Shown piece by piece: positions 19,286-21,066 of a stretch of 64,000 nt of DNA. The notes below the pieces were generated by a model. That model had not been told where the DNA came from. It saw only the letters and a program-made list of their open reading frames with translations, and searched no databases. The position numbers were made by a program, and so were the translations under genes. The number at the start of each line of letters is the position of its first letter. Position 1 is the stretch's first letter. This stretch comes from Aliarcobacter sp. Lineage in GTDB: Bacteria; Campylobacterota; Campylobacteria; Campylobacterales; Arcobacteraceae. The stretch covers positions 124,001-188,000 of the forward strand of contig JAQTXB010000002.1 in assembly GCA_028688995.1 (NCBI GenBank), read 5' to 3'.

Positions 19286-20587
19286 TTATACAATTTCATT
19301 TAATTGTTTTAATATTTGTTTAAATGTCGGTCGTTCTTTATGCTCTTCATTTAGACATAATATTTGCAATTGGAATAAAGTTTCTCTAATATTTACATTT
19401 TGATTATCATGTGAGCAAAGACATAATAACTCTTCAATTAAACATCCAAATGCTCTTACTTCTAATTTTTCTAAATTGTTACATATTTTTGGTTCTTCTG
19501 ATTCATAATATGATGCACCACCAAAATCACCTAAAATGCTATTATGATTTTCATCTATCATAATATTGTGTGCGTAAAAGTCCCCATGCATAATGCCTCT
19601 TTCATGCATATGAACAGCAGCATTTACCATTCCTTTTAATATTTTTAAACTTACTTGTGTTGAAAGTTTAAAATTAATTGGATAAACATCCCTAGTGCAA
19701 CTATCTAAACTTGGTGGTAAGCCTAAATTAAAAAAAGAAGAAGGAATTAATTCCAACATTAAGACATCTTTTCCTTCAGGATGCTCCAATACTTGAGCTA
19801 AAACATCAATTAAATTTTCATGCACACCCATAGAAATATTAATATCCATCTCTTCTTGTGGCAGTCCATCCGATGTCATTTCACCTTTAAATACTTTTAT
19901 AGCAACTTCCTTTTCATTGTATATTGCTTTATAAATATTTCCAGATGCTCCTTCTCCTAGCAATTCTTTAATTGCAAGTTCATTCCATTTTACTGTTTGT
20001 AATTTCGTCTTAGAATCTGGATGTTTTTGACAAAAAGGATTGCCACTATAAGCAAGCCATGAAAGTTTTGGTAGTGATAAAAGAGTTGTTGGAAAAGATG
20101 TAAGTTTATTTGCTGCAATTCTTAAGAGTTCTAAATTAAAACATTTATTTATTGATTCAGGTAAAAAGCTTAATTTATTACCAGAAAGCATACATTTCTG
20201 AAGTAACTTCAAATCTCCAATAGATTGGGGTAATGATGTCAATTCATTATCTGTAAGTATTAACCATCTAGTACTTAATGGTAAGGCATTTTCTTCAAAT
20301 ATTTTGATTTTATTATTACGCATTCCAATCATTGATAAAACAGGAAGTTTAGCTAATACTTTTGGAACATGATTAAATTGATTATTAGATAAAAAAATTC
20401 TCTTTAGTTTTTTAAATCTATAAAAATCATCGGGAAGAGTTGACAAATTATTATCAGTTAAATCTAAAACTTCCAACGTATCTACCAACGTATATAACTC
20501 TTTAGGAAAGATTTCAAGTCCAGCTGCAATTTTAATGTAGCTTGAATTTTCTAAATTACCGGATTTTAATTTCTTTAATGTTTCCAT
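19286..20587 (-). CDS. Leucine-rich repeat protein with C-terminal protein kinase domain
   Basis: In this 433-residue fusion, residues ~20-185 form about seven leucine-rich repeats of 22-24 residues (LxxLxLxxNxLxxLP type, e.g. EVLDLTDNNLSTLP). Residues ~205-433 form a eukaryote-like kinase: glycine loop GEGASGNIYKA (211-221), VAIK lysine K231, catalytic loop HGDFYAHN (334-341) in place of HRDxKxxN, and metal-binding DFG at 354-356. The catalytic Asp, Asn and DFG are present, while the loop Arg and Lys are replaced. No signal peptide or span is seen, so it is cytoplasmic. It stands alone. Its substrate is unknown. Confidence 0.85.
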   Translation of the reverse strand: METLKKLKSGNLENSSYIKIAAGLEIFPKELYTLVDTLEVLDLTDNNLSTLPDDFYRFKKLKRIFLSNNQFNHVPKVLAKLPVLSMIGMRNNKIKIFEENALPLSTRWLILTDNELTSLPQSIGDLKLLQKCMLSGNKLSFLPESINKCFNLELLRIAANKLTSFPTTLLSLPKLSWLAYSGNPFCQKHPDSKTKLQTVKWNELAIKELLGEGASGNIYKAIYNEKEVAIKVFKGEMTSDGLPQEEMDINISMGVHENLIDVLAQVLEHPEGKDVLMLELIPSSFFNLGLPPSLDSCTRDVYPINFKLSTQVSLKILKGMVNAAVHMHERGIMHGDFYAHNIMIDENHNSILGDFGGASYYESEEPKICNNLEKLEVRAFGCLIEELLCLCSHDNQNVNIRETLFQLQILCLNEEHKERPTFKQILKQLNEIV

Positions 20588-20729: not shown

Positions 20730-20805
20730 TGGAGGAGGTAGTCGGACTCGAACCAACGCATGTCGGATTTGCAATCCGAGGCATTACCAGCTTTGCTATA
20801 CCTCC
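20730..20805 (-). tRNA. tRNA-Cys (GCA)
   Basis: Read on minus, GGAGGTA pairs with TACCTCC at the acceptor, followed by discriminator T and an encoded CCA. The anticodon arm CGGATTGCAAATCCG gives anticodon GCA, and the T arm contains GGTTCGAGTCC. It is the last of three tRNA genes read on minus, with a short T run after its 3' end. Confidence 0.96.
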
Positions 20806-20878
20806 AACAGAAATGTATAGTCTATTTTATAAATCATTTAAAATTGAAAAAGTTTAGATGATTATTTTTTAGTTATAG

Positions 20879-20967
20879 TGGCAGAGAGCAAGGGATTCGA
20901 ACCCTCGGAGGCTTTCACCTCGCCGGTTTTCAAAACCGGTACAATCGACCAACTCTGTCAACTCTCT
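20879..20967 (-). tRNA. tRNA-Ser (UGA)
   Basis: This is an 89-base type II tRNA. The acceptor AGAGAGT pairs with GCTCTCT (one G-U), followed by discriminator G and CCA. The anticodon arm CCGGTTTTGAAAACCGG gives UGA, and a long variable arm (GAGGTGAAAGCCTC) is present, as expected for serine. Confidence 0.96.
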
Positions 20968-20979
20968 ACACATATATAA

Positions 20980-21066
20980 TGGTGCGAATGGTGAGAATCG
21001 AACTCACACTCCGAAACCGGAACGGGATTTTAAGTCCCGCGCGTCTACCTATTCCGCCACACTCGC
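20980..21066 (-). tRNA. tRNA-Leu (UAA)
   Basis: This is an 87-base type II tRNA. GCGAGTG pairs with CATTCGC (one G-U), then A and CCA. The anticodon arm CGGGACTTAAAATCCCG gives UAA. It is the promoter-proximal gene of the tRNA cluster, with only 12 bases separating it from tRNA-Ser. Confidence 0.96.

Follow-up and report, generated by a model that had tools for sequence, protein, structure and literature searches.

The gene under study lies on the minus strand at 19286..20587 of the window (the whole 64,000-nucleotide stretch of DNA that was analyzed), at the coordinates given in the original prediction. Including the stop codon, this open reading frame translates into a protein of 433 aa, in which a leucine-rich repeat (LRR) region is followed by a protein kinase domain. 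The LRR region covers residues 1–190 (20018..20587, minus strand), as judged from Pfam LRR_8/LRR_14 matches, AlphaFold2 pLDDT values of 83–98 and the repeat count. Residues 195–433 (19289..20005, minus strand) form the kinase domain. LRR_8 (3.6e-17) and Pkinase (7.2e-18) both exceeded their Pfam cut-offs, Pkinase scoring 65.4 bits against a gathering score of 31.7. No membrane helix was found in the 433-aa protein, the maximal 19-residue Kyte-Doolittle mean being 1.08, at residue 275. The protein had been described as soluble and stand-alone, and indeed LRR and kinase share one chain without a membrane segment. Key kinase residues are the Gly-rich loop GEGASG (211–216), the VAIK Lys231, the alpha-C Glu246, the catalytic loop HGDFYAHN (334–341; 19565..19588, minus strand) and DFG (354–356). 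Comparison of the window gene with four orthologues gave dN/dS values of 0.12–0.26, similar for the LRR and kinase halves. Since these values hold in both halves and the catalytic loop is invariant in 63 sequences (see below), chance or decay can be dismissed; by its sequence, the LRR-kinase is a genuine, maintained gene under purifying selection on both halves.

In the window, the kinase gene is flanked by tRNA genes and ilvD on one side and by amtB-glnK on the other. A cluster of tRNA-Leu(taa), tRNA-Ser(tga) and tRNA-Cys(gca), identified with ARAGORN (20730..21066, minus strand), lies upstream on the same strand, the kinase gene starting 142 bp downstream of it. Ahead of the cluster, a TTGACA-17-TATAAT promoter at 21143-21115 (minus strand) matches the sigma-70 consensus at 12/12 positions, and read-through from the tRNA cluster is a possible source of kinase transcription. 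The Leu/Ser/Cys gene order is kept in one homologous locus (L075). AmtB and GlnK were considered as functional partners and rejected: their genes are co-directional in the window and in L001, but lie away from the locus in L002, L003 and L009. Integration at tRNA genes was also discarded, as no direct repeats surround the kinase gene, only 4 of 58 homologous loci have a tRNA gene closer than 1.5 kb, and the GC content of the gene is 28.4% versus 27.2% for the window. No phosphatase is encoded beside the kinase, and the sole PP2C found in the genome, on contig 18, was rejected as the cognate phosphatase because the reading frame of a different kinase overlaps it. This PP2C belongs to a 542-aa frame at C18:80475-81893 (L014, L175) that reads PP2C_2 then Pkinase, an apparent phosphatase-kinase fusion.

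Full-length homologues range from 87% identity (an Aliarcobacter MAG) down to 39% (Roseomonas, Vitreoscilla) and carry the annotation name 'leucine-rich repeat-containing protein kinase family protein'. Members have the LRR followed by the kinase in one chain of about 415–460 aa that can be aligned end to end. Besides Arcobacteraceae and Sulfurovaceae, the family occurs in another campylobacterial family (f7) and in alpha-, beta- and gamma-Pseudomonadota. Its presence is patchy: it was found in 12 of 104 Arcobacteraceae genomes (our own included), 17 of 175 Sulfurovaceae and 55 of 200 f7 genomes. In a quick tree, which has long branches in Pseudomonadota, Arcobacteraceae copies occupy two positions with good support and Sulfurovaceae copies several, making transfer of the gene between families likely. 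BEI72309.1 (Paraburkholderia) and WP_089418300.1 (Vitreoscilla), at 39–44% identity to the window protein, show the same domain order in an end-to-end alignment and share the HGD[FL]Y[AG]HN, TSDG and PPS..C[TS]RD motifs; their N-terminal and some loop lengths, as well as their genome location, differ. A 2005 survey lists a P. aeruginosa LRR Ser/Thr/Tyr kinase, gi|9948555 (PMC1262709), which also joins an LRR to a kinase domain and is proteobacterial like relatives of the window protein; it is likened here by description only. No experimental study of the LRR-kinase family was found in the open-access literature, nor was any recorded function in Campylobacterota, for which the original prediction likewise named none. 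On sequence grounds, the window protein thus belongs to a named but unstudied family of many Gram-negative bacteria.

The catalytic residues were followed across the family in an alignment of 63 distinct sequences, which together represent several classes of bacteria. H334, G335, D336, Y338, H340 and N341 of the catalytic loop are identical in all 63, position 337 being Leu or Phe. The same holds for G211, G213 and G216 of the Gly-rich loop, for K231, E246, D354 and G356, and for His326 and His328. The stretch from Lys231 to the end of the FKG..TSDG motif (residues 231–241, between beta-3 and alpha-C; 19865..19897, minus strand) is similarly conserved, with K231, T238, D240 and G241 in 63/63 and F233, K234, G235 and S239 in 62/63. 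From this alignment, rather than from a curator, we defined the family signature H-G-D-[FL]-Y-[ASG]-H-N plus TSDG. Intactness of the VAIK Lys (K231), the catalytic Asp (D336), the Asn (N341) and DFG had been predicted correctly, as had the replacement of the HRD Arg by Gly (G335) and of the loop Lys by Tyr (Y338). These replacements are a family hallmark in 63/63 and no oddity of this one protein: the HGD/Tyr loop, as read from the alignment, is the fixed signature of the family and no degeneration.

The original prediction did not mention two further features, a short activation segment without APE and a helix F Glu at the Asp220 position. The segment from DFG to helix F (EVRAFG, to Gly381; 19445..19528, minus strand) was located by alignment and model. 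Counted from DFG to the helix F Gly of R-A-F-G, it spans 22–28 residues in every one of the 63 sequences, and an APE-like motif was found in 0/63. Kannan et al. (2007, PMC1821047) list ten key residues for the protein-kinase-like superfamily. The equivalents of eight of them (G52, K72, E91, H158, H164, D166, N171 and D184) are conserved in 63/63; the P104 equivalent is variable, and that of D220 is Glu in 62/63. In the same work, the family-selective HRD arginine reads the extended activation loop of the ePK, pknB and HRK families, and is tied to families in which this loop is extended and phosphorylated. Loss of the HRD Arg is therefore coherent here, since the loop that it normally reads is also missing. 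The HRD Arg has also been lost in recognized non-RD kinases (PMC8463890). Compared with Hanks kinases, the window protein has the Pkinase score, and its family has the eight core residues and lacks the HRD Arg and an extended, APE-ending activation segment.

Structure models were obtained with AlphaFold2. In the full-length model (nine sequences), the LRR was confident, with pLDDT 83–98 per block over residues 1–180. The kinase N-lobe was of low confidence, and the kinase domain was therefore folded alone. This kinase-only model (pLDDT 74.6, pTM 0.75) was moderately confident, model residues 48–54, 101–112 and 166–168 being under pLDDT 50. It shows beta-1 to beta-5, alpha-C, alpha-E and the catalytic loop, with helix F directly after a short post-DFG strand. 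Foldseek and VIA-align matches were TKL and tyrosine kinases, including NFR5 (17.9), IRAK4 (17.5), RIP3, BRI1 and RAF; the top matches had Z 16.7–17.9 over about 210–227 residues, those within one Z unit counting as tied. According to the model, the kinase half has a TKL-like protein kinase fold, although a common fold alone says nothing of activity.

HGD-type loops without the HRD Arg or the loop Lys are also found in RIO, Bud32 and Kdo kinases, which have no extended activation loop (PMC1821047). In contrast to these, the window kinase has its C-terminal subdomains as far as the last helix, where the R-P motif lies, and its best fold matches are ePK/TKL. The RIO1 profile scored 17.3 bits against a cut-off of 22, and Kdo 22.3 against 21.3 but only over residues 310–349, the catalytic loop; with no RIO1 or Kdo match across the whole domain, such an identity was rejected. 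The TKL-like fold is held in common with plant LRR receptor kinases, EFR, NFR5 and animal IRAK4/RIPK. Plant LRR receptor kinases also join an LRR to a kinase, and EFR shares the non-RD loop. However, the window protein has neither an ectodomain nor a transmembrane segment between LRR and kinase, so that it is not of the plant receptor type; its LRR is directly N-terminal and would be cytosolic. Its activation segment is, moreover, much shorter than in plant LRR receptor kinases, IRAK4 or RIPK, and the likeness of the fusions is one of fold and order, not proven shared descent. An LRRK/ROCO identity was dismissed, as there is no Pfam match to a ROC-COR GTPase and no room for one in 433 aa.

Within the LRR region, five 23-residue repeats fit a strict pattern, which Pfam and the model extend. 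The best sequence matches among solved LRRs were Leptospira LIC12759 and SHOC2. Residues W108, T112 and W177 of the LRR are near-invariant, which points to a single conserved partner. Recognition of a protein partner, as originally proposed, is plausible, but a host or phage origin of this partner is not what the data favor: selection on the LRR is as purifying as on the kinase, unlike that on an arms-race receptor.

Across 57–58 homologous loci, neighbors are clade-specific and mostly housekeeping genes, and Pfam analysis of 115 representative neighbors (within two genes) revealed no repeated functional theme. The placement of the kinase gene varies by clade and the LRR-kinase architecture is constant, as expected of a self-contained module. 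In Sulfurovaceae, 9 of the 17 copies (L006, L007, L008, L018, L109, L110, L118, L119 and L120) have co-directional murein genes next to them, with gaps of -10 to 294 nt. An MR_MLE epimerase, for which family and context suggest L-Ala-D/L-Glu specificity, lies upstream of the kinase in seven loci, often overlapping by 1–10 bp. An NlpC/P60-SH3 protein stands beside the kinase in seven loci, and in L018 an SLT_2 lytic transglycosylase follows 2 bp downstream. NlpC/P60 is near-universal in Sulfurovaceae (149/175). Because epimerase and NlpC are directly adjacent in the kinase-less genomes L157, L162 and L171, the kinase was probably inserted between them. Two genus-57 copies, with NlpC upstream, sit in a different tree clade from the seven other murein-linked copies, which suggests that the tandem arose from two origins, although an insertion hot spot would look alike.

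Taken together, we think it reasonably probable that the protein is a cytosolic, single-chain signaling kinase, catalytically competent, non-RD and without an activation loop, with an LRR that serves to dock a conserved partner in the cell. The invariant catalytic set, the TKL fold and the dN/dS values speak for this reading. Non-RD kinases are thought able to do without loop phosphorylation (PMC8463890), and as one of them the kinase would be active without it; control must then come from elsewhere, most simply from the LRR. By docking a conserved cellular protein, either substrate or regulator, the LRR would present it to, or hold it from, the active-site cleft. With the P+1/APE platform absent, substrate choice would be mostly through LRR docking, helped by the family-specific TSDG and PPS..C[TS]RD segments. 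The kinase appears to be catalytically competent, yet without the APE element it might phosphorylate protein substrates weakly or not at all, and a model of moderate confidence leaves room for an occluded ATP site, the feature that the original prediction named as a refuter. It is doubtful, but deserves weight, that the protein is instead a pseudokinase or scaffold, which binds ATP or nothing and acts through LRR-mediated binding alone. Such a role would agree with the non-RD loop, the lack of APE, the Glu for Asp220 and NFR5 as the top structural match, tied with others. Activity of non-RD kinases tends to be low, and the non-RD plant receptor EFR signals without catalysis (PMC8463890). However, identity of the Gly-rich loop, K231, E246, D336, N341, D354 and G356 throughout the family is not expected to be maintained once catalysis is lost.

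The signaling kinase could also serve murein turnover as a regulator, acting with the epimerase, the NlpC/P60-SH3 endopeptidase or the lytic transglycosylase of the apparent Sulfurovaceae operons. Same-strand adjacency, the kinase-less arrangement and the two separate clades argue for such a link; we nevertheless regard it as unlikely, given that the other Sulfurovaceae copies and those of Arcobacteraceae and Pseudomonadota, the window included, sit elsewhere, that the tree unites L018 and L094 with weak support (72), and that a hot spot gives the same picture. That the family as a whole is a cytosolic LRR/non-RD-kinase system monitoring or controlling the cell's own murein turnover is very unlikely. 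A phage-sensing defense kinase whose LRR recognizes a phage product is a highly improbable reading. The patchy distribution, a Vitreoscilla plasmid locus beside restriction and RtcR-like genes and a resemblance to PD-T4-6 and MAD6 would fit, but the PD-T4-6 and MAD6 scores are at kinase level (MAD6 35.7 bits against an NCBIfam cut-off of 460) and the neighbors are not rich in defense genes. PADLOC revealed one clear restriction/RtcR locus among 57, on a Vitreoscilla plasmid, its assignment to the locus inferred from annotation, and UvrD-like matches were ordinary helicases; membership in defense islands was accordingly rejected. A search of 2.9 million viral contigs yielded no relative, and the one phage record that matched aligns to LRR residues 49–160 only, so that viral or phage cargo was rejected for want of full-length relatives. 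With mostly housekeeping neighbors, no viral relatives and an LRR that is not diversifying, defense and phage readings are weak, as is the original idea of a phage product as LRR partner. That the protein is secreted and acts as an effector on a eukaryotic host is exceedingly improbable. Type III LRR effectors do score on the LRR half, but XopAC reaches 75.3 bits against an NCBIfam cut-off of 450, with the LRR alone matching, and XopL 37.1 against 500. Our own genome has no T6SS sheath gene, and homologues occur in many environmental Sulfurovum genomes; effector identity was rejected on the scores and the absent sheath gene.

The family name and the 2005 listing of the P. aeruginosa LRR kinase were already known; added here are a member and the rule for loop and activation segment. 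An apparent oddity becomes a family rule: throughout a whole family of bacterial LRR-kinases, the HRD Arg is missing together with the activation loop that it normally reads, and the family may offer a compact natural case for studying the control of a kinase that has no phospho-switch. The Sulfurovaceae operons supply murein enzymes as first candidate partners. If true, the murein reading would be a convergent functional parallel to the detection of murein peptides by LRR-plus-RIP-type-kinase systems in animals.

In three Poseidonibacter-type loci (L066, L068 and L069) a single strand carries the kinase gene flanked on one side by an AraC/Ada-type regulator, which bears a methylguanine methyltransferase DNA-binding domain, and on the other by a probable diguanylate cyclase. 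Our own genome also encodes a separate, kinase-less LRR protein of about 340 aa (C16:221532-222401), and many Campylobacterota genomes in the sample have similar frames of about 330–346 aa.
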